Positions 18,201-62,544 of a DNA stretch of 64,000 nucleotides are shown piece after piece. Location of the stretch: positions 9,079,147 through 9,143,146 of the forward strand of contig OZ038457.1 in the NCBI GenBank assembly GCA_964036195.1, given 5' to 3'. A program made the translations under genes and the position numbers. The notes beneath the pieces were generated by a model. That model did not search any database and was not told the DNA's origin. It was given only the letters and a program-made list of their open reading frames with translations. Source of the DNA: Sphaerolaimus hirsutus (Eukaryota > Nematoda > Chromadorea > Monhysterida > Sphaerolaimidae). Every line of letters begins with the position of its first letter. Position 1 is the first letter of the stretch.

Positions 18201-19850
18201 CCCGGTACATGGTTCGGCAAATAGTCGGGACTGGGGCGGTCCCGGTCCCGGTCCCGACGCCCCAGTGCCGGTCCCGGTCTCGGTCCCGACAATCGAAAAA
18301 GCCAGTCCCGGTCCCGACCACCCAGTCCCGGTCCCGGATGATGGATGGAAAAAAAGCGTTTTTTTCATCCATTCTACAAATTTTTTCCCACGCTTCTAAA
18401 TATAGTCGCGAGGCAACAAATACAGGTATATTAAGCAAGCCGTAGTACCTTTTGACGTTATGTATAGCATTAAAAGTGTTGATTTCTGCCGCAAAATCCG
18501 TTTCTGACGACCCAGTCCCAGTCCCGCTCCCGACAAATCCCAGTCCCGGGTCCGACACCCCAGTCCCGGTCCCGGTCCCGACAATCAAAAAATGCCAGTC
18601 CCGGTCCCGACACCCCAGTCCCGGTCCCGGTCCCGACACCCCACTCCCGGTCCCGGTCCCGACATTAGATAATTTTTGGTCCCGGTCCCGGTCCGGAAAA
18701 CTGGTCCCGATTGAACCCTAGACTTCACTTGCATGATGGTGTTTATTGGGGGTGCAAGAGTTGTCGGACCGTTATGATTTTGCGCATCTGGTTTTGCATC
18801 TGCACATTTTCATGAGCCGTTCGTTTACGTTATCTTACGGCGCTGAGCCGGTGCGCAAGTAAAACCGGTGCCCAAGTACGCCCGATGCCCAAGTATAATT
18901 TCCGGTGCCCAAGTACGCCCGGTGCCCAAGTAAAGTGTCCGTACTTGGGCGCCGGGCGGCTCTTTACTTGGGCACCGGGCGGATGTTTACTTGTGCATAC
19001 ACCTTGAAAACTATTTTTCCATCGTTTTCTCATGGAAAAACATACGTTGTGCTGAACTCGCGTGAAAAAGTGACCACTTTTACATATTTTATGAAGAAAA
19101 GTACTCGTTTCTAAGTTTTGGGGACTTGGACTCGACATTTTTTTCGGGTCGTAAATATGAGCGCTAGTCGACTAGTGCTCATATTTACGACCCGAAAAAA
19201 TGTTGAGTGCAATTTCGGGTCGTTTTACAGGGCATTCTCCATGACTTTTGACACTTCGCATGACATTTGACATTTTACAGGGCATTTTCCATGACTTTTG
19301 ACACTTCGCATGCCATTTGCCATTTGACATTTTACAGGGCAAGTATCGCTCCCATACTTGTGCACCGGGCAGGGCGCTTGCACCTGCCCGGTACCCAAGT
19401 AAACATCCGCCCGGTGCACAAGTAAATAGCCGCCCGGTGCCCAAGTACGGGCACTTTATTTGGGCACCGGGCATACTTGGGCACCGGTCTTTATACTTGG
19501 GCACCGGGCGTACTTGGGCACCGACCCACGCCCGTTATCTTACTACGCGCAACACTTGCACCAGTTCTTGCCATCAACCTTTGAGCGAATGATGCCACCA
19601 TTTCGTTACTGCGGCTAAGCCCTGATTCAATTCACAAAGTCTCTTGATTTAAAAAACACATTACCGCATTGCCCCCACGCCGCAGCCGCCGCGGCAAACT
19701 TCAAACATGGGTACCGCGTCATCAGCCGCGACAGCCGGTTCTGACGGCGGGATGCAGCGCACGCGGCGGCGCTCGTCGCCCGGCGCCCAGCAGCACCTCG
19801 TGTCCACCGTCAGTCCAATTGGAAGGGACCAAAATTGCAGCCTCATGTGA
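283..19850 (+). CDS. RIC1: RIC1 (RAB6A-GEF complex subunit), 5'-truncated, 23 exons
   Basis: RIC1 pairs with RGP1 as the guanine-nucleotide exchange factor for RAB6 at the Golgi. Exons inferred from GT/AG and phase: 283-502, 843-1041, 2525-~2761, 3010-3151, 3209-3361, 3634-3848, 4505-4670, 5179-5389, 5548-5731, 8076-8254, 11628-11793, 12439-12667, 13163-13399, 13788-13854, 14098-14336, 14637-14778, 15046-15191, 15552-15784, 16412-16551, 16865-16996, 17390-17606, 17778-18069, 19686-19850 (TGA). About 1436 codons. The first part carries the WD40/beta-propeller region ([41 protein letters not shown]). The RIC1 domain follows, with the near-invariant [17 protein letters not shown] and [11 protein letters not shown] (exon at 12439), then [13 protein letters not shown] and PGYKP. 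The low-complexity exons (13788-14336, 15552-16996, and the tail) are the least certain. The ends of the exons at 2525 and 15552 are also approximate. Roughly the first 150 residues lie outside the window. Confidence 0.93.
540..672. repeat. Degenerate CCCGAT-rich fragment of the TAGGGTTC family
   Basis: Repeats of gatcccga end in CCCGTTCGAACCCTA, the diverged right end of the family seen at 1566-2413. It starts just past the exon at 283-502 in a RIC1 intron. Confidence 0.5.
1248..2474. mobile_element. Tc1/mariner-type MITE (CAGGGTG family), split by a nested element
   Basis: Left arm 1248-1557 and right arm 2422-2474 match the intact copy at 26720-27266: GGCAATTTAGACC near one end, and GGTCTAAAT...CCCTG followed by TA at the other. 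It lies in a RIC1 intron, its right end 50 bp before the acceptor of the exon at 2525, and is interrupted by the element at 1566-2413. Confidence 0.7.
1566..2413. mobile_element. hAT-type element with CCGGGA arrays, 8-bp target duplication
   Basis: Both ends carry TAGGGTTCAAACGGGACC (inverted), and both sides are flanked by CAGACCAC (1558-1565 and 2414-2421). Arrays of GGGACC hexamers occupy each end. The 400-bp core resembles 6290-6520. There is no transposase frame. Open frames in the arrays are repeat artefacts. Confidence 0.8.
3420..3595. mobile_element. MITE, TACCG...TCGAGG family
   Basis: Inverted ends TACCGAAATACCCCC and GAGGAAATACGGTA enclose G-run repeats (gggggtatttcgag). It sits in the RIC1 intron 38 bp before the acceptor of the exon at 3634. 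The family recurs at 7126, 22391, 24060, 37005, 37982 and 53323. Confidence 0.65.
3864..4298. mobile_element. MITE with GGACGTAGCCAGG inverted ends
   Basis: GGACGTAGCCAGG at the left is mirrored by CCTGGCTACGTCC at the right, with long G or C runs just inside and a GGCGCC-rich palindromic insert at about 3985-4110. Shorter relatives are at 16140-16225 and 53431-53512. Confidence 0.7.
4780..5060. repeat. Palindromic repeat of ACATGTATACC units
   Basis: Variants of acatgtatacc and its complement recur on both flanks of a central GC-rich palindrome, within a RIC1 intron. It is probably a non-autonomous element; exact ends are not clear. Confidence 0.4.
6033..6547. mobile_element. hAT-like element, AGGGATGGCC ends
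   Basis: AGGGATGGCC at the left and GGCCATCCCT at the right are flanked by ATTCGTTA and ATTCCTTA, a 7-of-8 match consistent with an aged 8-bp target duplication. The inner part resembles the core of the 1566-2413 element. Confidence 0.6.
7126..7449. mobile_element. MITE, TACC...TCGAGGTAAT family, nested in hAT element
   Basis: Starts TACCTCGAAATACCCCC and ends GGTTTATTCGAGGTAAT, with G-runs inside. It belongs to the same family as 37005-37402. Confidence 0.6.
7555..7806. mobile_element. 250-bp MITE (CCACACGGTGGTTGACGC family), nested
   Basis: Near-complete match in reverse to 34719-34969: GGCGCTCCACACGGTGG at one end, GCGTCAACTGGCGTGTG at the other, with TTGACTCTGAGTTGACGC subterminal repeats. 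Confidence 0.8.
8760..9292. repeat. 27-bp minisatellite (GGCACCCCCTGGGGACC unit)
   Basis: About 20 tandem units of a C-rich 27-mer (ggcaccccctggggaccccc plus caaaaat). The period is a multiple of three, so it holds long but meaningless open frames on both strands. The partner array is 32290-32820. Confidence 0.9.
9296..9658. repeat. 30-bp minisatellite (AACTCAGCCCCTAATTTGGA unit)
   Basis: About a dozen tandem 30-bp units (aactcagcccctaatttgga plus aactcccata). The partner is 31615-32285. A few further units follow at 11030-11220. Confidence 0.9.
9659..11040. repeat. ~115-bp tandem array inside Helitron copy 1
   Basis: Around twelve diverged units, each with GGTTATGGTAATGTAGTGTC, AAATGGAGTGCATATTTCAA and AATGCATCATTTCACAATTT. 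Some units are shortened or fused. The matching array in copy 2 is 30260-31610. Confidence 0.88.
11953..12146. mobile_element. ~195-bp MITE, TATACTCGGCGGAC family
   Basis: Ends TACACTCGGCGGACATCACA and TTTGCGGTCCGCCGCGTATA. Relatives at 15213-15406, 28147-28337, 40471-40734 and 50503-50696 share the AATAATTAATTACGAAAT core. Confidence 0.8.
12230..12420. repeat. Repeat with ATAGATAGCTGA / AATATATAGGCTTTTTCA segments
   Basis: Shares gggatagatagctgagc, aatatataggctttttca and flanking G or C runs with 57230-57690. It lies just upstream of the acceptor of the RIC1 exon at 12439. Confidence 0.5.
12722..13122. mobile_element. ~400-bp palindromic MITE, GGATTTCTCGTGACGACAAC ends
   Basis: Long inverted ends (ggatttctcgtgacgacaac and its complement), with a second inverted pair around GGCGCACACGCA / TGTGTGCGCC inside. 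A related element is at 36178-36600 (shared AAAGTTCCATA segments). It ends about 40 bp before the acceptor of the RIC1 exon at 13163. Confidence 0.7.
15213..15406. mobile_element. ~195-bp MITE, TATACTCGGCGGAC family
   Basis: Starts TATACTCGGCGGACCGCAAA and ends AAGTGTGATGTCCGTCGAG then TATA. Inverted relative to 11953-12146. Confidence 0.8.
16075..16225. repeat. GGCGCC palindrome plus CCAGGATTTTTGAGCG fragment
   Basis: ggcgttggcgccagcgccatggcgcc is followed by G/C runs and ctcaaaaatcctggatacgt, the end of the 3864-4298 family. Probably two overlapping element remnants. Confidence 0.4.
18178..18720. mobile_element. TAGGGTTCAAACGGG-family element with GGTCCC arrays
   Basis: Left end TAGGGTTCAAACGGGACC, right end CCCGATTGAACCCTA, with GGTCCC/GTCCCGAC arrays at both ends. 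Flanks GTTCACTT and CTTCACTT are similar (offset by 2 nt). It lies in the last RIC1 intron, 108 bp after the donor. Confidence 0.65.
18835..19540. mobile_element. Array of GGTGCCCAAGTA units around a perfect palindrome
   Basis: GGTGCCCAAGTACGCCC-type units occur in both orientations at both ends (18840-19000, 19350-19535). The middle has a palindrome centred near 19171 (ttttttcgggtcgtaaatat...) and CATGACTTTTGACACTT repeats. Coding capacity not seen. Confidence 0.55.
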
Positions 19851-21090: not shown

Positions 21091-21126
21091 TCTGCAACTT
21101 GTCGAATAATGAGAAAACGATTTTGG

Positions 21127-21379
21127 TATACTCCAGTTACTTTACCTACACCCTGCACGCGCGGTTCCCGCTGGAAGCGTGCCAACGGGTTTTTTACGAT
21201 GCGATTTTCATAGAAAGTTGAAAAATGTAATCATTGTTATAATGCTAAACGTTCACTTGTTCACAACAATGATTTTTTTCATCTTTTATACAAAAATCGC
21301 ACGCTAAATCATCATTGGCACGCTTCCAACGTGACACATAAATGAGTGCGAGGGCAGAGCATCATGTCCGCCGAGTATA
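21127..21379. mobile_element. ~250-bp MITE, TATACTCCAGTTACTTTAC family (copy a)
   Basis: Starts TATACTCCAGTTACTTTACC and ends CATGTCCGCCGAGTATA. Forms a head-to-head pair with 21384-21634, four bases away. Confidence 0.75.
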
Positions 21380-21383
21380 ATTG

Positions 21384-21634
21384 ATATACTCGGCGTACGT
21401 GATACTCTGCCCTCGCACTGATTTATGTCTCGTGTTGGAAGCGTGCGAATGATTATTAAATCATGCGATTTCCGTAAAAATATGAAAGAAATTCATCTAT
21501 GTGAATATGTTAATGAATAACATTATAACAACAATCAATTTTGTCATCTTTTTATGAAACTCGGACGCGTTAACCATCGTTGGCACACTTCCAGCGGGAA
21601 CCACGCGTGCAGGGTGTAAAGTAACCGGAGTATA
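21384..21634. mobile_element. ~250-bp MITE, same family, inverted (copy b)
   Basis: Starts TATACTCGGCGTACGTGATA and ends GTGTAAAGTAACCGGAGTATA. Mirror of copy a, giving a 500-bp palindrome in the RIC1-tetraspanin spacer. Confidence 0.75.
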
Positions 21635-22149: not shown

Positions 22150-25100
22150 ATGGGCTGCGGCATGGGGTGCATCAAGGTGGTGCTGGTCACCTGCAATGTA
22201 CTCACTTGCGTAAGTGTCCTGTTTTTGTGTAGCTGAATTTATTCTTTCGCGGCTGGCTGGGTCAGTTTGGTGTATTTTTAGGCGGTTTCCTTTTAACATG
22301 GACACTGCCAGCATGAATCGATGTTATCTACTGAAGGCATTTGCACGCCGAAACTGCCAAACGATGAGTCCTTATACCTTCATTTAAAGATACCTTATAT
22401 CCTCGAATAAGACCCCACCCTCTAATAACCCTCCCCTTGAATAACTCCCCCTCTGGGTGGAAAAGATGCATAAATCTTATATGCATGTATTTTACAAAAA
22501 TGATCGATGAAAATACACAACATGTACGCAGTGTATACCTAGATGACTGTATAGCTGGATTACATGAGTTGACAGAATGAATTCATACAATGAATTAAGT
22601 CTTGTTTTCTGAGGAAGAATAACTCCCTCCCTTGAATAACTCCCCCCTCAAAAAGTCTGACGAAAGAACAACTCGCCTGGGGTCTTATTCGAGGACATAC
22701 GGTAATCATATGTCAGATTCTCGGTCTGGTGGTGTGCATCGGGGCGGCGGTGGGCGCGACGGAGAGCGAGGCGCTCCTGGAGAAGCTGGCCGAGGTGGCC
22801 GCGCAGGAGGGTGTCAGCATCGCTACCATCGACGCTGTGAGTGTGCACGTTCAACTGCGAGTCACTGCAGTCTAGTGCGACCACGCACATTGTACACCGT
22901 CGAAAGTTGGAAACTCATAAATCTATTTTGAATGCATTTGAGTTCACCACAATGAATTATTTTTGATTGCAGTGAACAGTAGTTGACAGATTCCTCATTG
23001 TGTTAAACTCGATTGTGTACAAAACAGAGTTTATCAAATTTCGTGGTGTAGAAGTAGCGCTGTTGTGGTGCAAAGTGTGGCTGGCAGGATCACATCACCA
23101 TTTTCACCATGGTGCTGTTGTCTCCCTTTATTGTTAGTCCCGAATTTCGAGGTGACGTACGCGATGTGGGGCTTGTGTGCGTTCGGCGCCATCATTTTCC
23201 TGGTCGGCCTGCTTGGCTGCATCGGCACGTGGGCTGAAAGTCGAATTATGCTCGGAATTGTGAGTTGCAACAGATTTGTGGTTTCTTTGATTTAGGGAGA
23301 ATTGTTGGCCGATTGACTATTTTACACGATTCTAACCATTTTGAATTTTGGTGTAACAACTAAGTGGAAACAATTTTTTGTGGCTGTTAGGCCGGAATTA
23401 GAGCTCAGCGTCGATTCGACGTGAAATGATGACGTGAAATGTTTTCGTGAAATTAATTACACGAGTGTGGATCATGCTACGGGTCTACAATTTTCTAAGG
23501 ATAATATATGAATCAATACCTTAATCGTGTCCAATACTGAGTGTTATCAGCCACAACTAGAGCGAATTGAAAAATTCAATTTTTATCATTTCACGTCATC
23601 ATCATTTCAAGTCACAGTGTCAGGGAACAACTTGACATTTCATAAAAAAGTGAATTGGGAAGTGAAATGGCAAAAGCGAAAGAGAAATGAATGTCTTTTT
23701 TCTACTTCGCTTTTGACAATTCACTTGCCGTTTCACTTCGCCTTTGCGCTTTTACTTCGACTTTGCCATTTCACTTGTCACTTCTCATTTTGCGGAACTG
23801 GCCCCCAATTTCTGACATGTTTCCAAATAATCCACCAAAATCAATATCAATCGCAGTACATCAGCGTGATATTCTTCCTCGCGTGTATCGTGTTTTTCTT
23901 GGCCGTGGGGTTGATCAGCGCCAGGCCGGCGCTCGAGCCCGAGATCGACAAAGTGCTCGACAACGCCATCCACGGAGACAACAAGACGAATGAAGAGCTG
24001 CTGAAACGACTCGAAGATAAAGTGCGCTTCTTCTGGATAAAGTGTTTTCTTGTTGTATTTACCGTATATCCTCAAATAAGACCCCCTCGAATAACTCCCC
24101 TCCTTTGAAAAACTCCTCCTCAAAAACTCCCGACGAAAAAATAACTCCCCTCTCGAATAACTCCCCATCTTTGTATAACCCCTCCTCAAAAACTCCCGAC
24201 GAAAAAATAAGTCCCCCTCGAATAACTCCCCTCCTTTGAATAACTCCTCCTCGAAAACTCCAGACGAAAAAAAACTCCCCCCTCGAATAACTCCCCCTCT
24301 TAAATAACTCCCCCTTGAATCACTCCCCCCTCAAAAGTTCTATCGAAAAAATACCCCCGGGGTCTTATTCGAGAATATACGGTATTCACTTTTTGTATGG
24401 ATTTGGATACATGACTGGTGGAATTATGACTGCAGACGACGGTGAAAAAAACTGCTCGGTAATGGTAACCCAGATGAATATAAATTTTGTAAATGTGTAT
24501 TTAGGTATCACAAAATGTTCCCCAATATACATTTCCCGTGCAATCAAATCGGCCAACATCAACTAAATACAAACCTCACCGAATGCCTCACAAAAAAGTC
24601 AGCAGACAAAAAACCCTAAAAATCCGCCCGCCCACCCAGCTGGACTGCTGCGGCTCTACCGGATGGGAAAAGCAATGCTTCGAGAATCTGGACGAGCACG
24701 GGGGACACAAAGATGGGTGCAACGAAGCCGTGTGGAGGGTCGTGTCCAGGTGCCAATCCCAGACCCTGTCAAATGCCCTGTCAAATGTCAAATGTCGTGC
24801 AAAGTGTCAAAAGTCGTGTAAAATGCCTTTTCCCTTTTCCAGGCCATTTTACATGACTTTTGATATACTCGGCGGACATGATACTCTGCCATCGCACTTA
24901 TTTATGACTCACGTTGGAACTGTGCCAATGATGATAAAAGCATGTGATTTTTGTGTAAAGAAGAAGAAAATGATTGTTGTGAATGAGTTAACGTATAGCG
25001 TGATAACAGCGATCACTTTTTCAACTTTTTGTGAAAACCGCATGCATAAAAAATCGTTGGCACGCTTCCAGCGGGAACCACGCGTGCAGGGTGTAAAGTA

Positions 25101-25677
25101 ACTGGAGTATACTTTGCATGACATTTTACAGGTCAGTTTAAAGGGTCCGGGACTGCCCCCAGGGCCGTGGGCCTGCTCAGCGTCGCCTGCATGGTGCTCG
25201 TGTTCGTGCAGGTGGGTGTGCAAATGGGTGTTCTGCAAATGCAAGTTAGGGAAGTGTAGTTGATGTGGAGATGGTGGTTACCAACCAAGTTGATGCGAAT
25301 GGCGACGACAAACAAAAATTCGAAAGTATTCTTGGGTAATAGTAGAAGTATTCTAAAAGAAGAGCGCTGTTCTATTTTTTCGTCAACTTTTTTACCTGCC
25401 GTTCTATTGGAGGTGCCGTTCTAATGGAGGCTACCGCTCTATTATTTTCGTGTGTGCTAAAATGTGCCTAAACCTGCCGTTATATTGGAGGTGCCGTTCT
25501 ATTGGAGGTATGCCGTTCTATTAGAAGAAATACGGTATTTAAAATCTAAATATGTCTGAGATAACCAATTTTTTTGGACGCATTTCCACGTTGTTACAGA
25601 TGCTGGGAATCATACTGGCTTGTCAGTTCTATTCGATGGCTGGAAGCAAGAACGCAGAATATCAGAAAGTTCAGTGA
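22150..25677 (+). CDS. Tetraspanin, complete, 7 exons, 229 aa
   Basis: Four-pass membrane organiser protein. Exons: 22150-22209, 22717-22836, 23152-23259, 23857-24021, 24640-24749, 25163-25211, 25600-25677. Phases agree and the total is exactly 230 codons. It begins MGCGMGCIKVVLV, a Cys-rich juxtamembrane start typical of palmoylated tetraspanins (palmitoylated cysteines), followed by TM1. TM2 ends with the family hallmark FLVGLLGCIGTWAESR. TM3 is in the exon at 23857. The large extracellular loop has the diagnostic CCG (LDCCGSTGW) and only two further cysteines, so it is a four-cysteine loop. TM4 spans the last two exons. The exon-3 start was set at 23152 because the AG at 23137 breaks phase. 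A polyA signal lies 106 bp past the stop. The subfamily is not assigned. Introns 2-5 hold MITEs, and intron 5 is essentially one transposon. Confidence 0.92.
22391..22704. mobile_element. MITE, TACCGTAT-CCTCGAATAA family, next to an acceptor
   Basis: TACCTTATATCCTCGAATAA and TTATTCGAGGACATACGGTA ends. The right end is about 10 bp from the AG of tetraspanin exon 2. Confidence 0.75.
22884..23050. mobile_element. Palindromic MITE with AAACTCATAAAT...GAGTTCACCA arms
   Basis: Inverted arms around CACAATGAATTATTT/AATTGTGTTAAACTC in tetraspanin intron 2. Similar to 28440-28505, 44201-44395 and 61085-61210. Confidence 0.5.
23610..23815. mobile_element. MITE of the GCGGAACTGGC family
   Basis: AAGTGAAATGGCAAAAGCGA arms face TCGCTTTTGACAATTCACTT arms. 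The right end CATTTTGCGGAACTGGCCCC is about 40 bp before tetraspanin exon 4. The left end is unclear. Confidence 0.55.
24060..24384. mobile_element. MITE of CTCGAATAACTCCCC repeats
   Basis: Ends TACCGTATATCCTC and GAGAATATACGGTA enclose tandem AATAACTCCCC / AAACTCCCGACGAAAAA units in tetraspanin intron 4. Confidence 0.75.
24750..25162. mobile_element. Transposon coinciding with tetraspanin intron 5
   Basis: The intron starts GTGCCAATCCCAGACCCTG and ends GGGTCCGGGACTGCCCCCAG. These are the inverted ends of a family also at 38538-38725, 51560-51748, 57920-59041 and 60062-60217. Inside are CAAATGTCGTGCAAAGTGTC repeats and a nested 250-bp MITE (24864-25111). Confidence 0.7.
24864..25111. mobile_element. 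~250-bp MITE, TATACTC family, nested
   Basis: TATACTCGGCGGACATGATA at one end, AAGTAACTGGAGTATA at the other. Interrupts the CATGACTTTTGACACTTTGC repeat of the host element. Confidence 0.8.
25340..25536. repeat. CCGTTCTATTGGAGG repeats, element remnant
   Basis: Four or five units of gccgttctattggaggt end in AAATACGGTA, the terminus of the TACCGTAT family. It lies in the last tetraspanin intron. Confidence 0.5.
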
Positions 25678-37564: not shown

Positions 37565-40500
37565 ATGTCTAGTAGTCGCACGCCGAATCAACTAAAAGGC
37601 GCTTCCGATAACTCGATCGATTTGCTACAGCCGCAAACGTCAGATGACGCAAATGCACCACCTAAAAATGGGCAGTCATTCGAGTTTGGCCACATAAAAT
37701 CGTCTATTGATGCTACCTTGGATCAAATTGGTAAAGGGGATAACGTGGTCGGTTGAGGGTTACGAAACAAAGTTTACCGAATAACAGGTCAATTGTCAAA
37801 GTGACAAATTTTTTAATTTTGTCGACGGAAAACCTTATTTATTCAACCTGCTGTCTCAAAAAATCGGTATATAAAAAAATTCTGTGGCAATATCTGTAAA
37901 GATAGAAATAAAAAAATACATGTTTTATATTTTCTTACATAAAAATTACTCCCGAGATTTTTTGAAATGCTTACCGCAACATACCGCATCTCCTCGAAAT
38001 ACCCCCAGGGGGGTTATTTTTCAGGGTGTAAATTTTGAGGGGATATTTCGACGAGGGCTTAAAGAAGCGTCGAAAAAATAGTCTTTTACCTACCCGGGGG
38101 GTATTTCGAGGGGGTAATTCAAGGGGGTAGTCCGAGGAAATACGGTAATCTAGTACCCCACTGCCACGCAGCGACACTGGGCCACCGAGGTGTTCGTCTA
38201 CTTGCTGTACATGGTGGCGGCGGCCGGCGCCCTATTCAACGTGGCCATGGTGGTGCCGCACGCGCTCGACCTGCACCACATGTTCGCCAGGAAGTACGAC
38301 GCTCTGCTCTGCGTACCGTTGATAGGTCGGTGGGGGAGGCCAAGTCTCTTTTGATGAATTTGTTGACATTTTCACACTTCATCGGTGTCAACTTCCATTT
38401 TCTGCACATATGTAGATATGTATTTTTATGAAATTTCACAAAGTAAATATGTCTGCAGTGTTTTTTGGAAAGAATTATAGTTGTAGTAGCCAAACAAACA
38501 TTGTTGACCAGCCAGATTCCCATCCAACGACATGGCCTGGTGGCAATCCGGCGCCCTGTAAAGTGTCAAATGTCAAGTAGAATGTCATACAAATTTTACA
38601 AATGTAATGCTAAATGTCCAAAGTTCAGTAAAAAATTTTCCTTCATTTTTCATTAAAAATAACACTGCATGACACCTGAAACTTTACAGGGTCACTCACA
38701 CTTGACAGGGTGCGAGACTGCCCCAGTCGGCCGATTTATAAAAAAATGCATTTCAAATAGGCAGTATTCTCAAGTAAAGCATCCACATTTTAATATGGGC
38801 GGATTGGGAGCGGGTCGGCGTTTTCAATAAACAAACAAGCTATAATACCCGACAAACGGGTGGTGATTAATCGCGTTTGATTCAGTGCCAAAAAACTGTG
38901 TCTACTCACAATGCAGGCTCCCAACTCCTGGCGCTGTGCTACCTGCTGGAGCGGCGGAACTACGTGATGCGGCGGCAGCAGCCGGTGCCCGTGTCCGCCG
39001 CCCAGCTCGTCATGATCGGCTTCCTGACCATGGTCACCTTCGGCGGCATCGTGCTCTACCTGATACCCTATCAGTTTATGTTCTGGCACTGCGACGGTGT
39101 GCTCAAAACGCACTCAGCCGCTGAAAAATGGATAGACGTGGTGTGGTATGCGAGTACAGGTGGGTATTTATGAACTATTTACACTTATTATAGGTAATAA
39201 AAAATGGTTCTAAGTGTTCTTGGATCTATTGAAAAGCTTCAATGCAAATAAACATTCTAGAAAGAGTAATGATGGCAACCCCTTCAAACACTCAAACCCG
39301 TCAAATTTCAAACACTTCAAAATTGACATGGGATGTTCGAAAGGAATGTTGATAATGAGCAACTTAAAAAGTTAAAAGTTGAAGAGTTAAAGAGATGTGG
39401 AGCCTTACCTCTTGCGAGGTTGCGCTCCTCTCCAATGCCTACCGCTCGCTATCGAACAAGTGTTAACCATATAGACATTTTCGTATCATTACATCGCACT
39501 GTTTACGATTGATTTATACCTAACTTTATAACTTTGATTTATACCCACGTCCCATACCTAGGCTACTTGTCATTATTACCTAGGTTTCCCAGGAATTCTA
39601 GACATTCTCGTAATGTCAAATAACTTAATAATTTACAACGCGCTTCAGTCTCTAGAAAGTAGGTAAATTGCATCGCGAATCTGCAAAACCCGCAAACGCA
39701 ATCCACACACTCAAAAACATCCAAAAAAAACCCACAGCCAGCTTTCTGGTCACCATCGTGCTGTATTCGCTGCAGCGGGCCGGCCTCCAATCAGACAAGG
39801 AACAAGGTGCAGCGCATACATTCGAACGAATCATAAAGGAACTTGTGGCCGTCACAATCGCGCTACTTTTTGTGAAGATCGTTTGTCACAAGGTATATGG
39901 CGTGTACTATGGCATGGTGTGTCCTCACGCTATTCAGGAAAATGGGACTACTGTGATTGAATTGGGTGGGTTTTAAAATTTTGATGTTGATAGAATGGAT
40001 AAATGCTACTAAATGACATGTTAAACACCAGAGAAAATACTGCCATTGATATCAAAGGCATTTTTGCCAATGGTACACCGATTTAAAACAAAGTTTGAGA
40101 GAATACTTTAAAAAATCAACGTATTTAAGAAACCGTACCAAATAATATCCCACCTGTGAGGAACAGTACCCACTTGCTTCAATGGACAGGTGTCTGCGAT
40201 ACTCTACGCTCGCACGAGTACCAGTGCAGCCCCTCGCGGAACTTGACGGACACGGCGCAGTTCTGGTACACGTTGGACAAGAACCTGGCCAGGCCGTTCA
40301 CGTTGGCACTGGGCGCCGAGCTGTTGCCGCTCTTGTTTTGTCTGCACAGGTTTGATGGGGCCGAGAAAATGTCTTCAAACTAGAGTAAAGTCAAAAATGA
40401 AAACAATTTTTCATTGACCACGAGACATGTTTCATGTTTCCAAGCACTATTCATTTTTCATATTTCTAGTTATACTCGGTGGACCGCATGCCATGCTTTT

Positions 40501-47201: not shown

Positions 47202-47449
47202 TATACTCCAGTGACGTGACACTCTGCACGCGCAGTTAGTGATGTCTCACGTTGGAAGCGTGCCAATCACATCAAAGCATGGGATTTTTGCGAAACGATG
47301 AAACGATTGACTGCAGTAAATACGTTAACGTAAAACGTTACACGAGCAATAAAATTTGTCATCTTTTTACGAAAATCGCATGCATTAAATATCGTTGGCA
47401 CGCGGCCAGCGTGAACCACGCGTGCAATGCGTAAAGTCACTGGAGTATA
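47202..47449. mobile_element. 248-bp MITE, TATACTCCAGTGAC family, clean copy
   Basis: TATACTCCAGTGACGTGACA and GTAAAGTCACTGGAGTATA ends, with a CGTTAACGTAAAACGTTA centre. The clearest member of the family seen at 21127, 21384, 24864, 41212 and 63458. Confidence 0.82.
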
Positions 47450-51000: not shown

Positions 51001-54000
51001 TGATGAAATTTCGCGCGTCCAGGTCCTGTTTTTTGTTGTTGTTTTTTGTGCAGGTGTGAAGAGTGCGGCAAATTCCACCACAGAAAATTCTGTGGTGAAA
51101 ACCACGTCTCAAGTCGAAGACCGTAGAAAGAAAACACCCAAAACAACACCTCTGGTGGGGCTTTTCTATTCTCGGGCACCAGAATTTGCGGCCTATGTTG
51201 CAGTCTAGTGGCGCTGTCGACCGACTGCCGTCTCAGCGCGGCGGCGGCGGCACACGCAGTTGCCCTGTGCGCCGTGCCCGCCAACGAACTGGGGCCGCAT
51301 GGATTTTTGACGTAGCGACGCCCCGCGCGCCGGCCGAATGAGTCTGCAGCGGGGGATGGAATTTTTGAACAATTGGGTTTGCATTTAGGATTGAAACAGC
51401 CAATAGAAATCAAAAAGGTGATGGGAACGACAGGGAAGAATGAAAACGCAGTAAAAGATCATCGCACTCAAATGTGTCAATAAGCTATATAAAAAACTTG
51501 GGATCCACAGAAAGGTGACAAGGTCACCTGTCGCACACAAGCTTTAATTTTTATAGTGCTCCTGGGACCAGTCCCACGCTCTGTAAATTGTCAAATTTCA
51601 TCTAAAATGCCAATCGAAAAAGAAAAGATTTTATTACTGAACTTTGCATGACAATTGACACTTCACTTCACATTTGTCATGACAATTGCCACGTTGCATG
51701 ACAGATTTACATGACATTTGACACCTTACAGGGTCTGGAATTGGCATCAGGAACCGCCACACCAGAAAACCCCCGCAATAAACACAATAACACAAACCCA
51801 ACCCACCAGTCATATCCCTCCTATTGTTGACGTGCTGCTGCAAGTGCTGCGGCGGCGGCAACCTGCAGCCGTTGAAGTTAGCCGGCCAGCGGCGCGTGGA
51901 ATCCCTGTAGCGCAGGTCCACCGGGGGCACGTCGGGGCCGAGGCAGTGCAGCAGGTGTCTGATGCTCGGCGACAGCTCGAGACCTGTGATGGCGCCCGGA
52001 TTGGGCAGGTGGTCATTGTAGGGGTTTGAATTACGGCATCGTACACTATGTTTATTGGTTATTTGGTGTTGGAAAAGCGTCAGAACAAAGAGTCCATCGC
52101 CAATGGCGCCATGGCGCCTTTTGGAAAAGTAGATTGCCACAGAAAGATGGTGCAAAGCGCACGTAGTCATAGCGCAGCGCCCTCAAATGGCGGGGAAAAA
52201 TTCCGAAAAAATGATCCTTCCGAAAAGCGTAACCTAGACTTTTGACGACATTTGGATGCCAGTGGAAATAGGCGAGCAGCATTTCCTTCTGCTGTTCCGT
52301 GGCCAAATCAGTGGGAGCATAGCCGCCGGAAACTTCTGCTTCACGTTTTTGCTCGGCGGCAATTGACGCCAAAGCACGTCGAGCCCTGAAAGAGAGAAAA
52401 ATCTATATGGACACTTCTTTGGGTATTCCACTAAACTCAGTGATTGGCTTTTTTGGAATGTTGCCAATTCAAAAAAATTCATATGGAGTGGGTGTAAGAG
52501 TCACCTGACGAGCTAAATTAGTCTGGAAGTCGGTTGGAAAATTGGGAAGCTAATCGAATGAAGTTAAGTTACACACCTGTAAGAAGATTCTCTGCGCTGA
52601 AACTCAGCAATATCCTTCTGTATTATATTCAGACCATCGCACACATTGCCGAGCAGCTCTTCACGATCTGTGCATCGCCACAACATTAACATAAAAATGA
52701 AAAATAAGCTCTAGTAGGGATGTCAGAAATCGCTTTTATTGCCGATATTAATTGAACTTGAAACGCTTTTAAGTGCCAAAAGTCGAACTAGATACCTTAA
52801 GTACCAGCCTGCGGTTGACAAATTTCTAACATGATTGAAACAAAATTGCCACTCAAAAATGTACATCTAGAGTCTTATTTGAAGCCCCATAAAAACTCAC
52901 TGGCCCTAGGCGCAACCCTGGCGGCGCCCCTCGAATCCAAGGTGTACTGCCTGTACTCGTCCATGGTCACCAGCGGCACGGGCACCGGCAAGCACTCGGT
53001 GCTCTCGTAGCGCTGCCGCAGCGGCGGGGCGTAACTGCCCGCGATGTAATTGCCGCTCGGAGGCAAACCCGCCGCCGCGGCTGCCAGACTGTTCTGATTG
53101 TGGTAGTGATCGTGCCGTGCGAGCGCCGCGTCGGGCGTCTCGTAGAGGTCGTCGGATTGGTTGAACAGGGCGCCGGTGGACCACGAACGCCGGGTGGGTG
53201 AGAGTGACTGCGCGCGTTACAATGACTATGCAAGTCGATCGAAGTAGTCTATCGTATCGATGGTATCTTACCGGACAACTATTTATGATCGTATTCTTAT
53301 TCGATATAGCATACGCAAATTTATACCGTATTTGCTTGAATAAATCCCCGTTTGAATAACTCCCCCTCAAGAATAAATTCGCCCAATAGGACGAGAGACA
53401 ATTCCCCTCTTGAATAAATCCCCCTCAAAAGGGACGTATACAGGATTTTTGATCGGGGGGGGGGGCGGATTGTATCCGGAGCCCGGCGAACGCCCCCTCC
53501 CCTGGCTACGTCATTGCTTCAAGTTGTATGATCAATTTCTCATGTACAATTTTAACAAAAATAGCATGTTGTTGCATTTTTTAAAGCATATTTTGTGAAA
53601 TGACTTGATAGAAAAATGGTCGAAAATTTTGACAAAATAATATATTAATTACTTTTATTATTTCCCCCTGAAAAGTGACGAAAAGTTAATTCCTAAGGGG
53701 AATTATTCAAGCAAACACGGTATCTATAAACACGAGTTTGAGAACGCACTACCGACCACTTCCCACGACCTCTCAGACCCAACTTTCCTCACCTGAAAAG
53801 GACGCAATCCAAAAGCGCACTGCGCTAGTTGAACGTGTCGCCGCCGGTCAGCCAACTGCTCAACTGGCTGCGAGCGGCCGTCGTCCTCGACGCACACGAC
53901 GGTGGTCTGCGGCGCGGCGGCGTGCTCGTGCTGCGGCGCGGCCGAGTCGTCGTTGCTGCTGCTGTTGCTGATGCTGTTCGCGTTGGGCACCACCACGTCG

Positions 54001-57000: not shown

Positions 57001-60000
57001 ACATTACACGGTGGTTGATACAAGTTATTTGACACAGGTCATTGCACAATTTGAAAAAAAACACCCAAGAATAACGTCACGAATTATGAGTCACAACACA
57101 AAAAAATCAATGTAAATATCGTTGAAAATAAAATACTTCATAACGATCAGCTAATATATTAAGCTGATGCGCACAGATGCATACACAACAAATCGGCGTT
57201 GAAAGTGCAGTCATGTATACTCTAGGGATCTCCACAATTTTGGCCCTCGCGTTGTACAGATAGCTGAAAATTTTTCTGAGGGGGGGCTGGGGGGCTTGGG
57301 GGGCTCACGCGGGCAAAATATATAGGCTTTTTCAGTGCATAAAGGCAGAAAGGGGAAAAATCGCTAAAAAAGTTAAAAGTAGCCAAAAACATTTAAAAAT
57401 AGGTAGATAAACATGGGTATAGGCGAAAGCCCCGATTTTGAAGGTGAAACACTATAAAATGGTATGAAAATAACCGATTTCGAGCGAAAATTGGGCCAAA
57501 ATTTCTCAAAAATAACTCCAGATAGGTAGGTAGCTGAGTGATTTGGGGGGGGGGGGGGCTCAGGTGTAGTAGCCAAAAATGTTGTCTCGGGATAGATGAT
57601 AGCTGAGCAGCGTCCGGGATAGATAGATAGCTGGCGGATTTGGGGGGTGGGCAACCCCCCCCCCCCCTAGGAGACCCCTGCATACATCAGTATTTATAAT
57701 CTAGCTACCGCCTGAGCAACTGCCAATTTTTTTAACTTCAAAGTGATCAGTTTGGGGCAATTTTTGAAGCGATCCTGTACGGATCATAAAATGGAATCGC
57801 GACAGGTCATAAAATGGGATCTATGATGTAACTGTGCTGAAATCGAAGCTAGGTAAAAGCCGAGCTTTCGCCAGCATCTGTTGCATCGAACCAGCCGTCA
57901 CGCCGGTCTAAAAGCACCCAGGGGGCAGTCCCAGAGCCTGTAAAATGCCCTGTAAAATGTCAAATGTCATGCAAAGTGTCAAAAGTCATGTAAAATGTCA
58001 TGGTGGTGTACTATTGCGCGCAACGCCATTTAACGATGGGCACGTATTTTGTTTCCCAAACACGACACACAAGCAACGATGGAAAAAACACAGAAATTGA
58101 ACACAGAAACTCATTGAGTTTCTGTGTTTTTGTTTTACACAGAAACACGGAAACTCACAAATTTTGAAAAACTCAAAACTCAAATGAGTTTTTATTTGGA
58201 GAGCACAGAAACACAGAAACACGGAAACACAGAAAAGTTTTTCGAGTTTTTGAGGGGTTTTTTCCAGCGTTTTCACACATTTTCAGAACGCACATGAACT
58301 CAGTTAAACTAAACAAGATAAGATATGCATGCATAGCATGTAAATATGTAATTACATAATGTATTCATATTTTATGATGGAACAAAAAATAAATTAAAGA
58401 TGGCATGCACATCTCCTGGTTGACATGTTTAAATATAGTTGTAGTTCAAATCAATTCTGTAGTCTTCCATACAGTGCACATCCATTGGATTGTCATTTGG
58501 AAAATTTTGGAGTACTGCGTAAATTGTCATTTGTGAGCATTTTGTTGATGCTGGTGTTGTGATGTGGGTGGATGTCCTCATTGAGGACATTTTTATGGAC
58601 TTTTTCGACACTTGAATGAATACACATATGTGATGTGGGGTTACAACATGTGCAAAACCAATATTTTATAAGAAAACCGTTGTTTCCACATCAAAGATTC
58701 AAAATGCTGTAAATCAGAATTTTTGGGGAGAAAACTCGAGCTTTTTGGACAAAAACTCGAGTTTTTTAGAAGAAAAAAACTAAAACAAGTCGAGTTTTAA
58801 CAAAATACACAGAAATAAAAACAGAGTTACACAAGTTTTTTTCGATAAAAAACTCAAAACACAGGTATTCATTTTTGAAAAACTCAAAACACAGAATGTT
58901 TCTTTGGAGAACTTACCCATCGTTGCACACAAGTCAAAAGTCGTGTCATGTAAAACGCGTTTGCCATTTTACAGGGCATTTTAAATGGCTTTTGACACTT
59001 TGCATCACATTTGACATTTTACAGGGTCTGGTACTGGCACTAGCTCCGCAAGTCGCATATGAATGCGCACAAACATTATTTTTATTACTAAAGCGACGCT
59101 AATATCTTATTACGCAAACACATCAAAACGCCTTCGTAAATAAATAAATATTTTACTACCAGTGCTGGGAAAATTTGCCGGTAGAAAATTTTCCGACTTG
59201 GGGGAAAACGCCACGGCTATGGCGCCTGGCGTCATTTTTGTGGCGTTCTAGGCGGACTGGTGTAAAAAGGTTCCATGGCGTTACTAGTTATCGATACAAT
59301 AATAATAATAAGTTATGTCAAGTTTTGCGTTAAATAGTTCTTAATTATAGAGATTGTGAAATTCGGCGCTAAATATATATAATACTATAACCGATAGTTA
59401 AAATATCTAAGAGTATGTAAAATATTCAGAAAAACTGAGAATCGAACTCTATTGCAAAACAAAACGGCAACAACCGAACAAACTCTTCAAATTATTTGCG
59501 AAAGCACAAAAGGAGTGCAAATAAATGCAGTTTGCCCTGCCCTACTTTACATTTCAATGCATTCTTGTTGCTCGCGGGAACATGAAAAATGCTTAATTTT
59601 GTCATAAAACCGCACACTAAGAACATACACCGAAAGGATAAAAAAACAACCAAAACACATAGCACCCAAAACCAACCGTCGTCCCGCTGTACACCATTAT
59701 GCAACCAATCAGTTTCTCGCTTTTCAGAGCACCCACACTCGTTTGGCAGCTGTCCAACATGTTGTCGATCGCGGTGCTGTTCATGCTGCACGGGTTCAGC
59801 GTGCTCGTCGATCAGTTCAACGTCGCCAGTGTGTAACTGCAGTACCATCACCATGCTTAAGGAGTGTCTGGGTATGGGTAAATACATAGGTAGATTGTAC
59901 ACAGCCAATGCATTTTCGCCAAAACTGGTATAAAGCATGAAATATAAAAAGGTTATTCTATGAGCGAACTTCGATATCTCACGGAAAAATTCTATGTTCT

Positions 60001-62544
60001 GGTTTGGAATTTATTTCTATAGGGTGGCAACAAAGTCACGATAGAGAACGATAACCTCCATAGGCAGTCCCGAACTCTTCTAAGTCAAGTGTCAAAGGTC
60101 GTGTAAAATGTCAATCAAGTCAAAAAGAAAAGATTTTCTTACTGAACTTTGCATTACGATTGACAAATTTTTATGACATTTGACACTTAACTTTTTACAG
60201 GGCTTGGGACTGGCATCAGAGTGATGAGCGTAAAAAGGTGAAGTGTGTGTCTGATGAGGTGTGTAAAAAAGGAAAGAAATCCCGTTAAAGTATGTTTTGG
60301 CCATCTAAAACCAGTCTAGAAAGTTCCACCGTTCCGAACACAACAACACGACAAAATAAACAAACACAAACCTCAAACAGAAACGGCTAATCCACTAAAC
60401 AACCAATTCCACTAACTCAAAACTTAGATAAGCTGAAGTCCGACGGCGCGCAGCGGCAGGTGCGCGGCAGATTTCCAAAATCCGCGCGGCACAAAGCCGC
60501 ATTCAGCGGCGAAAATCCCAAACAATCAGCTTAGAGCACCATTGTCGCAGCTGGAGCGCACGTGCCGCGCGCACACAAAGTTCAAGTGGCCGCCAGCTAT
60601 GTGCTTAGACCTTCCAGTAGACTTTGGTGTGTAAAACGAGCTGTGCAAAATTATAGCCGCAACGCAGGGGCATTTCGCCGATCGAAAGCTTTGAAGCTCA
60701 ATGAATCGGCTCCAAAAATAACTCAACAAATACGATTTTGCATAGATACAGAATACAAAAGTAGCTCCTAAATTGTATACCTGTTTATGTGCAGTTCAGT
60801 CAACAGATCTGTAAATAGGCAGGCCAGTGCGCGTGAAATGTTCGACAGCCATTTTCGGCGAGTCAAGGCAGACGCGGCAACAAAGCGGGGGGGGGGGGAG
60901 GGGGGCTGGGCGAATATTTTTATGTGGCGTCCTCCGAAAAATTTGTCAAATCAGCGGTGTCAATTTGATTGTGAACATTCGACCAATTTCTAGTGTAGTC
61001 CGACCTAGGTCATGCGCATCATGTGAAGGTGGCCACAGCAAACTGCACATTGTGGCCAGGCACAGAAGTACACCGACAAAATTTATGAAACTCGTAGATA
61101 TGTTTTGAACACATCTGAGTTTACCATAATGTATAGTTGACAGATTCACTCTGGTAAACTCAAATGTTGTTCTAAAGATAATTGAGTTCTCCAAATTTTG
61201 GTGTACTATTGCGAGCAACGCCATTTAACGGCGAGCAGTGGCACGTGTTTTTGTTTCCCAAACGCGACCCACAAGTCTGGCGTTAAATAAATGCGTAGAT
61301 TCCAAAGGCGGCCAGACAAATAGAAAATGGCCATTTTGGTGGTACCTACAGCACATCACGACACTCACAATCAATTGTTGATGCTACTGTTACATTTGAA
61401 AATGCCGCCCGCGGCAGTTTGTTAGTGTTTATAACGATCAACTGCAGATTGTAGTTTACACATTCATCCAATCAGTGAGAAATACCGGTGGAAGTAAATA
61501 TACATGATTGATTTCTTTTGTACAACTTTATAAATAGAGCGGGTTGCAAAAAACACACATATATCATATTGAAGCGTACACGAATTATGATCGAAGTCAC
61601 AGCGGCCATGCATAACTAAAAATCTGGAGAAGAAAAACGAGTAAGCACGGACACATTGGAACATTGAAAATTATCACGCAGAGATAGGGTTCAAACGTTT
61701 CCCGGCGCCGTTCAAATTTTTCATTCACCGCAACAAGGACTAAGGAGTTTGAACCTTACGCATGGACGCATCCAAGGCAAAGCTTGAGTGTCAAACGCCG
61801 GACCAAGATTAAGTACAAAATGTAATGGAAAACGCGAGAAAAGGACTGCAAAACCATTGTGAATTACTCCTTAAGTTGCTCCGGTAATGCGCCCCAACTT
61901 TTCCGAATACGCCCATGCAACGCCAACAGCAAGCACCGAAAGCACGGAATCACCCTTCAGACCATCACAGTACAGTGTCCAACACGTTGTCCATGAAGCA
62001 CTTCAGCATGCGCGGCTTACTCGTCACCGTCATCGTCATAATTAGGCTGGTTTTCGTTTTCATTAAACAAAGACATGATGTATGATATCCATCGAGGGGG
62101 TCTGTGTCGCATTACCACGAGGTCGATTTGAATGCGTCGGATCTGTCGCGCCCGAGGTAGTACCCAACTGCGCGGGGGGCGTTATGAGTAGTGATGGAAT
62201 GGCGCGATGGTTCTTGCGCTCTTTAATGGTGACAGCGCCAGTGGCGCCTAGAGCCAATTTTTCAAATGGTGCCATTGTATGCGGCGCCCGGCACCATTTT
62301 CCCTAGTTGCGAGCAAACCACATATCGCAAAAGACACTGACACGGATAGTGAATTTTTCAGGGGTGGGAAAGGGGGGTTGGGGAGGGGTAACCCACGCGC
62401 GGGGTAACAACTCAGTGTCAAAAACCAACAAGTGCAAAAAAGTGGACGTGAGCAGCAGGGCGGCCACGGCGGGCTTGCGCAGCGACTCGCCGTCCGTCGC
62501 CAGCGCCAGGGCGTCCGACGCGCACACAGCCCCCGACATGCCAC
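48045..62544 (-). CDS. Unrecognised multi-exon gene with coiled-coil motifs (5' limit uncertain)
   Basis: Exons in coding order: 62393-62544 (tentative), 60540-60621, 53793-54016, 52901-53207, 52577-52667, 52234-52385, 51807-51983, 51180-51343, 50900-51025, ~50030-50213, 49410-49649, 48324-48446, 48171-48258, 48045-48104 (TGA). Phases agree across all junctions except the end of the exon at 50213. The tentative first exon has one hydrophobic segment (AVAALLLTSTFLHLLVF), which may be a signal anchor. The rest is mostly soluble, rich in Ser, Pro, Gln and Arg. Two related charged motifs, EIRELRRREQELRQQR and EIAIERDIVEQRRREFELR, resemble the short helical motif of MISP/AKAP2 C-terminal regions. 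That is only a suggestion. The protein ends ...DDFYEVGQTTFSPN. Exons have high G/C at third positions. The gene converges on the otopetrin-like gene. Confidence 0.65.
48535..49242. mobile_element. ~700-bp element of AAAAGTACCGATCTACA repeats
   Basis: CACGTGCATGTGAAGGGTGTG and its mirror mark the ends. AAAGTACCGATCTACA recurs at least seven times inside and once inverted, with a second CCCATGCATGTGGGTAT palindrome. Flanked by ATGAATGAATG microsatellites. Lies in an intron of the minus-strand gene. Confidence 0.7.
50340..50777. mobile_element. TATACTCGGCGGAC-family elements, one nested in another
   Basis: The inner 50503-50696 matches 11953-12146. The outer arms match 40471-40734 (GCGGTCCGCCGAGTATA at the right). 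Confidence 0.65.
51560..51748. mobile_element. MITE of the GGGACCAGTCCC...CTGGAATTGGCA family
   Basis: CTGGGACCAGTCCCACGCTC then TGTCAAATTTCATC repeats to ACAGGGTCTGGAATTGGCA. In an intron of the minus-strand gene. Confidence 0.65.
53323..53722. mobile_element. MITE, TACCGTATTTGCTTGAATAA family, with nested insert
   Basis: TACCGTATTTGCTTGAATAA and TTATTCAAGCAAACACGGTA ends. A short GGACGTATACAGGATTTTTG...CTGGCTACGTC element (53431-53512) is nested. Confidence 0.75.
55651..56344. mobile_element. 694-bp hAT-type element of TTACGC repeats
   Basis: CAGAGTTGCAAAA and TTTTAACAACTCTG ends, flanked by perfect GTTAACAA (55643-55650, 56345-56352). Arms are arrays of TTACGCTTACGCTTACGCTT. No transposase. 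Confidence 0.82.
57230..57690. repeat. Repeat with ATAGATAGCTG units and G/C runs
   Basis: Gatagatagctg units, runs of G or C, and a segment shared with 12230-12420. The ends are not defined. Confidence 0.5.
57920..59041. mobile_element. GGCAGTCCCAGAGCCTG-family MITE interrupted by a hAT element
   Basis: Left GGGGGCAGTCCCAGAGCCTG, right CAGGGTCTGGTACTGGCAC. Interrupted by other repeats, including 58074-58925. Confidence 0.6.
58074..58925. mobile_element. hAT-type element, CAACGATGG ends, second copy
   Basis: CAACGATGGAAAAAACACAG and ACTTACCCATCGTTG ends with perfect CACACAAG flanks (58066-58073, 58926-58933). Reverse of 6659-8065, without the two MITEs nested there. Confidence 0.9.
59728..59836 (+). 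CDS. Possible plus-strand exon with a hydrophobic helix
   Basis: After a pyrimidine-rich acceptor (tttctcgcttttcag) an open frame reads WQLSNMLSIAVLFMLHGF and ends in TAA at 59834, with almost all codons ending in G or C, as in the real exons here. It lies in a large intron of the minus-strand gene. No partner exon was found on the plus strand. A donor (GTGTAA) overlaps the stop, so it could be internal. It may be the last exon of a nested gene, or a decayed one. Confidence 0.3.
60062..60217. mobile_element. ~155-bp MITE of the GGCAGTCCC family
   Basis: AGGCAGTCCCGAACTCTTC start, ACAGGGCTTGGGACTGGCA end, GTGTCAAAGGTCGTG repeats. Closely similar to 51560-51748. Confidence 0.65.
60426..60530. 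other. GC-rich patch next to a minus-strand exon, unassigned
   Basis: A 100-bp stretch with exon-like base composition lies just beyond the donor of the 60540-60621 exon. Plus strand: an open frame ending at TAG (SDGAQRQVRGRFPKSARH). Minus strand: an open Cys-containing frame (NLPRTCRCAPSDFSLSK). Neither joins a neighbour in phase. It could be an alternative exon or a regulatory element. Confidence 0.2.
61085..61210. mobile_element. Palindromic MITE with GAGTTTACCATAATG arms
   Basis: Arms GAACACATCTGAGTTTACCA and TGGTAAACTCAAATGTTGTTC. Relative of 22884-23050. Followed by a GTACTATTGCGAGCAACGCC segment that also occurs at 58008. Confidence 0.55.

Follow-up and report, generated by a model that had tools for sequence, protein, structure and literature searches.

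Intron 5 of a tetraspanin gene of the nematode Sphaerolaimus hirsutus appears to consist of a whole transposon. The gene lies in a stretch of 64,000 nucleotides (contig OZ038457.1, positions 9,079,147 to 9,143,146, assembly GCA_964036195.1; hereafter the window, in whose numbering positions are given). With high probability, as judged from the sequence, a miniature inverted-repeat transposable element (MITE) of ∼160-190 bp with a CWG-type duplication inserted in a CAG of the tetraspanin exon and became an intron, and the family to which it belongs is an introner family. By the sequence tests described below it qualifies as such a family, and systems of this kind are already known. The anatomy of the insertion, its duplication, the continuity of the exon, the recurrence of the arrangement in other genes and the orientation of the copies in a homology-confirmed sample were observed directly. 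We infer that the copies are spliced, that a hairpin aids their splicing and that the intron was gained specifically in this lineage.

Intron 5 of the tetraspanin gene

The protein joined from the predicted exons is a tetraspanin, as evident from its match to PF00335 (1.1e-25, Pfam scan). Intron 5 opens with GTGCCAATCCCAGACCCTG at 24750, directly past exon base 24749, and closes with GGGACTGCCCCCAG at 25162, exon base 25163 adjoining, so that GT...AG ends are present. The intron is exactly the transposon (24750-25159) plus one copy of a 3-bp CAG duplication. The first-pass annotation had proposed that a whole transposon fills this intron, and its borders at 24749/25163 are confirmed. The alignment of copies that it suggested for defining the termini fixes the element at 24750-25159, i.e. 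with its ends not well inside the intron. Its further claim, that the element ends supply both GT and AG, holds for the GT, which the element does contribute; the AG, as the genome copies indicate, lies in the second CAG of the duplication.

The termini are inverted repeats of a family with other copies in the window, where the 5' terminus occurs three times at ≤3 mismatches, as compared to 0.02 expected. The copies named in the first-pass annotation were recovered at 38540, 51565-51747, 57922 and 60061-60216, and an unlisted one was located at 59040. Without the nested second element at 24866-25109, which that annotation had missed, the outer element measures ∼160 bp.

Removal of 24750-25162 restores the frame, as had been claimed, and yields a junction that aligns without gaps to both CD81 entries (36.7 and 40.4 bits). 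The alignment to TSPAN7 is also gapless, in a weak stretch of 9.2 bits that is not significant alone; the alignment to CD9 is interrupted at the junction by a gap of three residues. When intron 5 is retained, the reading frame meets a stop ending at 25101. The intron is probably cut precisely from the message. All nine introns ancestral to the tetraspanin genes of animals are in phase 0 (PMC2650405); intron 5, being in phase 2, is not one of those nine. None of the tetraspanin paralogues compared has an uninterrupted exon over the intron 5 codon, a result that speaks neither for nor against a gain.

Most ordinary introns of this gene look GT-AG. At the exon 2/3 join (22836-23140), the tetraspanin frame needs the donor GTGA|GTGTGC or another unusual border. 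Introns 1 and 4 (22380-22710 and 24061-24383) carry, by reading, a CCTCGAATAACTCCCC-like unit repeat, which ends with GGGGTCTTATTCGAG near TACGGTA, short of the splice sites.

Genome-wide family and target duplication

The whole genome (348,482,957 bases in 762 contigs) was searched with the left (L) end of the element. At ≤1 mismatch, 2220 + 2087 matches were obtained, against 0 + 0 for the reversed control pattern; the total of 4307 is a number of ends, in which a copy having two L-type ends is counted twice. The sample studied further comprises the first 100 listed zero-mismatch matches, all on contig 1; it favours intact copies, and the first 25 bases of each are fixed by the search itself. 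A right end, looked for within 750 bases of the L end, is present in 90 of these copies and lacking in 10. The search of viral contigs and phages for relatives returned none.

Identical 3-bp flanks border 61 of the 90 two-ended copies, and 60 of these are CNG. Of four possible offsets for the right end, the one agreeing with the left trinucleotide was taken, a choice that inflates the agreement; the chance level is reckoned at ∼6%, against the 61/90 recorded. The left/right pairs are CAG/CAG (32), CTG/CTG (24), CTG/CAG (9) and CGG/CGG (3), followed by TAG/CAG, CCG/CAG, CGG/CAG and CAG/CCC (2 each) and 14 other combinations once each. A CWG duplication, i.e. CAG/CAG or CTG/CTG, is therefore found in 56/90 pairs. 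Three of the 90 copies are duplicates (L044, L068 and L108), which are included in the flank counts and in the 45-nt frame test, and excluded from the 87-copy test described below. The flanks suggest that the target duplication is CNG, mostly CWG, and that the element starts with GTGCC and ends with GCCCC; the anatomy of the genome copies likewise indicates that the GT is the element's own and the AG is duplicated target. A 5-bp duplication CCAGG, read from the window alone, was dropped, since the genome copies show a 3-bp CNG and a start at GTGCC.

The consensus of 78 elements (77 sampled and that of the window; 186 nt) forms a near-perfect hairpin with four free bases at each foot, where both splice sites stay exposed, and a folding energy of −158 kcal/mol. 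The window intron itself folds with a z of −9.9 relative to its shuffles. Outside the searched end, the window copy differs from the consensus by 10.1%, the median of copies being 8.7%, which suggests that it is not especially young. The insertion had been called recent in the first-pass annotation; this is not borne out by an outer element ∼10% from its consensus, though the nested element has a 99% identical copy elsewhere.

Insertion into coding exons and orientation

The 60-nt flanks of the copies have a mean GC of 0.56, as compared to 0.415 in 988 background stretches, and GC reaches ≥0.55 in 49/87 distinct copies against 8.7% of the background. The training set of a codon score consisted of loci judged by eye to be sense, and scoring was leave-one-out. 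With 75-nt flanks and a threshold of 3, both flanks are coding-like in 16/87 copies and in 19/1740 control positions; 13 of these 19 are same-frame, as inside exons. The independently called frames of the two flanks agree in 14 of the 16 copies, and all 14 are sense. As a rough guess, the share of copies in exons may be put at 16/87 by the strict count and at 49/87 by GC alone.

Homology was sought by a Pfam scan of joined flanks, with the element and one duplication removed, in one sense and one antisense frame for each of 50 loci (those left of the 61/87 with a codon score > −4 after 11 judged weak were excluded; for L101, the longer sense frame was used). Hits above the family cut-off were recorded in 13/50 joins, and in all 13 the hit is sense, i.e. 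on the strand with GTGCCA at the 5' side (p 0.0002, two-sided). The families are LRR_6, Oscp1, CHGN, CBS, Cadherin_FAT4_N, 7TM_GPCR_Srx, E1_dh, Xan_ur_permease, calpain domains (two loci), Helicase_C, AMP-binding and Homeodomain. The match spans the junction in 11 of the 13, in L036 and L055 by few residues, and the matches of L041 and L073 extend past the linker into the antisense part. Hits below the cut-off, namely nec1 (L043), PTH2 (L090), TUDOR (L130) and some second families, were left uncounted. In all five loci compared with the PDB, the best alignment is gapless over the junction: AMPK-gamma-1 (L055), ATRX (L097), BCKDHA (L072), Abd-B (L106) and SLC23A1 (L073). Another tetraspanin gene (L134, G000:C3:27627500-27628900) carries a family copy between CAG duplications at a different codon, and its exons join as ...LGLAIAIMSGQ to SGMESLVTDAL with the copy as the whole intron.

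The same element ends thus border 11 putative introns in unrelated genes. The genome search for further introns bounded by this family, proposed in the first-pass annotation, thereby returned 11 candidate loci with junction-spanning matches, five of the joins compared being gapless against structures; the view that a DNA transposon of introner type became a whole intron in an animal gene finds support in the window, and stronger support in the family across the genome. It is very improbable that the transposon fell in an older ordinary intron, with its ends near the splice sites by chance. Transposons are common inside introns, and the other repeats in the tetraspanin introns stop short of the splice sites, as this explanation would have it; yet element plus one CAG leaves zero older intron bases on either side, and the same holds for the 11 junctions spanned by Pfam matches in other genes, including five that are also gapless against solved structures.

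The orientation of the copies bears on two further explanations. The copies may be unspliced exon insertions that disrupt genes, as pseudogenes or harmful alleles, and stay in the RNA. The GTGCCA donor is indeed weak past position +3 relative to the donor consensus, and the AG is missing from many copies. However, the exclusively sense orientation in the 13 homology-confirmed exons would be unexpected were splicing irrelevant, and the copies are not new (median 8.7% from the consensus), yet the five joins compared are open and conserved, AMPK-gamma, ATRX and Abd-B being among the genes; this explanation is accordingly unlikely. Removal of the elements from somatic DNA, like that of internal eliminated sequences, would dispense with the AG, as precise excision between short direct repeats needs none. 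Such excision should ignore gene orientation, in conflict with 13/13 sense loci, and gives no reason for the right-side CAG excess described in the next section, so that DNA removal is hardly credible.

Insertion followed by splicing would proceed as follows. A MITE with terminal inverted repeats lands in a CAG of the tetraspanin exon, and the insertion would convert CAG into CAG|GTGCCA...GCCCC-CAG|. The donor would then be composed of the exonic CAG and the element's GT, and the acceptor of the duplicated CAG behind a short run of C. CAG are the last exon bases favoured at donors. Splicing would bring back the original reading frame, and family copies in coding exons would have GTGCCA toward the 5' side of the gene. 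The hairpin would bring the two splice sites together and bury the inner AG.

Several observations weigh against this interpretation. At a codon-score threshold of 2, the laxest used with 75-nt flanks, the flank frames agree in 17/25 copies, of which 16 are sense and 1/17 antisense; with 45-nt flanks they agree in 15/22, of which 12 are sense and 3/15 antisense. L121, a locus with no Pfam hit, scores better as coding in the antisense direction (12.4 vs 3.4). The duplications are imperfect at both other two-ended copies of the window. Copies with exact CTG/CTG or CGG/CGG flanks are without the AG that would be expected, and a plain GT-AG model leaves them unexplained. No transposase is linked to the family termini in the two partial transposase stretches read, so that no autonomous partner emerged from these: the first has no terminus-like site, and the second has a one-mismatch match of 11 bases with the rest of the terminus missing.

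DDE_Tnp_4 is abundant in the genome (163 matches). Most among the matches listed belong to one family of high uniformity whose matched stretch contains 4 TGA; this may reflect an intron inside the transposase.

Copies ending without AG

The 11 junction-spanning loci comprise CAG/CAG (2), CTG/CAG (1), CTG/CTG (7) and CGG/CGG (1). Eight of the 11 homology-confirmed junctions therefore end in CTG or CGG, and GT...AG is not found at the frame-preserving border. These would be either GT-TG and GT-GG introns, or introns spliced at an inner AG with the addition of 3-7 residues. Ends in CTG, CGG or CCG occur in 15/43 copies labelled coding, the labels here and in the inner-AG counts being assigned by eye.

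Exact genome-wide counts give 1053 CAG and 889 CTG on the left, and 873 CAG and 510 CTG on the right (Fisher odds ratio for the right-side CAG excess 1.45, p 2.9e-7; unpaired counts of intact ends). In the sampled pairs, CTG/CAG is found 9 times vs once for CAG/CTG (p 0.02), and pairs of any non-CAG on the left with CAG on the right 15 times vs 6 for CAG on the left with any non-CAG on the right (p 0.08). The right-hand CAG is thus in excess, as if selected.

The CTG- and CGG-flanked copies may instead be spliced at an inner AG, mostly that of TTTTACAG; paired with a GC donor that starts two bases into the element (GT|GCCAGT), it would add 7 residues in frame. An ACAG stands 16 nt ahead of the element end in most sampled copies. 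Enumeration of GT or GC donors and AG acceptors within the insertion returned a stop-free in-frame GC-AG option (+7) for all but one of the 8 non-AG copies confirmed by homology, ATTTACAG replacing TTTTACAG in L072; GT-AG options exist in L055 (+6), L095 (+3) and others, along with longer ones. In human genes, TG 3' sites are reported never to be the sole site (PMC2374985), which favours such splicing. The extra residues, however, would enter conserved cores (ATRX helicase, AMPK-gamma CBS, BCKDHA), and the right-side CAG excess suggests that the terminal trinucleotide itself serves as acceptor. As the element ends are largely fixed, the frame coincidence of the GC-AG option amounts to one event and not seven. 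Inner-AG splicing is possible, though somewhat doubtful. The inner AG is lost in five AG-ended coding copies (L058, L080, L090, L091 and L099) and in one CTG/CTG copy (L079), too little to decide.

Set against inner-AG splicing is the reading, to which we give an even chance, that the family generates introns in great numbers, with any duplicated trinucleotide (CAG, CTG, CGG or CCG) serving as their 3' splice site. GT-TG and GT-GG introns would then be spliced at large scale, with the hairpin pairing the ends and hiding the inner AG, and selection would slowly turn the intronic copy to CAG.

Nested element and other features of the window

The coordinates of the features are collected in Table 1. 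The best copy elsewhere in the genome of the nested element at 24866-25109 is 99% identical, and this second family has at least 37 further genome places with 89-99% identity over ∼230-260 bp. Its relatives within the window lie at 21126-21379, 21381-21634, 47202-47449 and 41202-41427, with TA duplication; two of them sit back to back. Two genome copies of the outer element (L022 and L024) also contain the second element, which there is either reversed or inserted at a different point of the outer one, so that these look like separate nestings and not one composite.

Table 1. Features of the tetraspanin gene, the intron 5 element and its relatives in the window
Feature	Position	Strand	Basis
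Tetraspanin gene	22150-25677	+	Exon list; PF00335 on joined protein
Tetraspanin exon 5, large extracellular loop, ending ...GTGTCCAG	24640..24749	+	PF00335 on joined protein; exon list
Left CAG of target-site duplication, exonic	24747..24749	+	CNG duplications on genome copies; window anatomy
Intron 5, 413 nt, phase 2: element and right CAG	24750..25162	+	Exon list; junction alignments
Outer transposon (MITE, NuwaI-like), begins GTGCCA, ends GGGACTGCCCC	24750..25159	+	Genome copies; consensus
Left terminal inverted repeat; its first two bases are the GT donor	24750..24768	+	Window and genome copies
Nested second inverted-repeat element; TA duplication 24864-24865 / 25110-25111	24866..25109	+	Repeat comparison
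Right terminal inverted repeat; C-rich end ahead of acceptor	25141..25159	+	Window copies; consensus
Right CAG of duplication, source of AG acceptor	25160..25162	+	Genome copies; window anatomy
Tetraspanin exon 6, start of fourth membrane helix	25163..25211	+	Exon list; junction alignments; PF00335
Tetraspanin last exon	25600..25677	+	Exon list; PF00335
Family copy, one clear end; right limit approximate	38540..38690	+	Terminus matches
Family copy, two ends, flanks CTG / CAG	51565..51747	-	Terminus matches
Family copy, one end, CAG just before; right limit approximate	57922..58002	+	Terminus matches
Family copy, one end; far limit approximate	58950..59040	-	Terminus matches
Family copy, two ends, more diverged	60061..60216	+	Terminus matches

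The sequence GTGCCAGTCCC is that of the family termini. At 18820-19530, inverted-repeat units of the ACTTGGGCACCGGGC type surround tandem pieces of the introner inner sequence (19231-19342). Long open frames of short repeats at 8730-9410 and 31652-33200 represent the same repeat protein read from opposite strands.

Comparison with known systems and implications

The family resembles the introners of a published survey in the parts of that text available (PMC9860276): families of similar introns derived from DNA transposons, with inverted repeats, a target duplication and splice sites that can be recruited partly from it, mRNA length mostly unchanged, and GC-rich coding sequence as the insertion site. 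The same parts place introners, among animals and land plants, in two groups only, both animals, whereas in the present animal a single family has thousands of ends; they give rare 5' sites (GC and GA) and not non-AG 3' ends, in contrast to the CTG, CGG and CCG ends seen here. In its CWG duplication the family agrees with NuwaI, a group of the PIF/Harbinger-like elements (PHIS) that occurs mainly in animals and has a 3-bp 5'-CWG-3' duplication and inverted repeats (PMC4482050); autonomous NuwaI members are expected to combine a DDE transposase with a Myb/SANT protein. The present family differs in that only short non-autonomous copies were seen and in duplications that include CGG and CCG too.

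Human TG 3' splice sites, reported for 36 genes and always as an alternative to a nearby AG in the accessible text (PMC2374985), share with the present copies a CTG as intron end and an AG in the neighbourhood, here ACAG; unlike them, the CTG would here be the frame-preserving end of many new introns. Tunicates are likewise animals with many non-GT/AG introns, ∼95% in the genomes described, and introners with weak splice sites are named as a possible source of splice-site divergence (PMC13326754); in the window gene, by contrast, the ordinary introns look mostly GT-AG. No description of the present family was found in the open-licence literature. A later and wider introner survey reportedly exists, and the introners of this animal may already be listed there.

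Large-scale intron gain is considered uncommon among animals, and by what mechanism it occurs is an old question. Thousands of related copies exist in the genome, many of which lie within other genes, and new introns appear to arise from this family en masse: one short family would bring donor and acceptor ready-made to thousands of insertions in a single genome, at which the empty sites can be read from protein conservation. Should the copies that end in CTG be spliced as such, they would break the rule reported for human genes (PMC2374985) that TG is never the sole 3' splice site, and the change from CTG to CAG would offer a natural series for the study of 3' splice-site choice and improvement.

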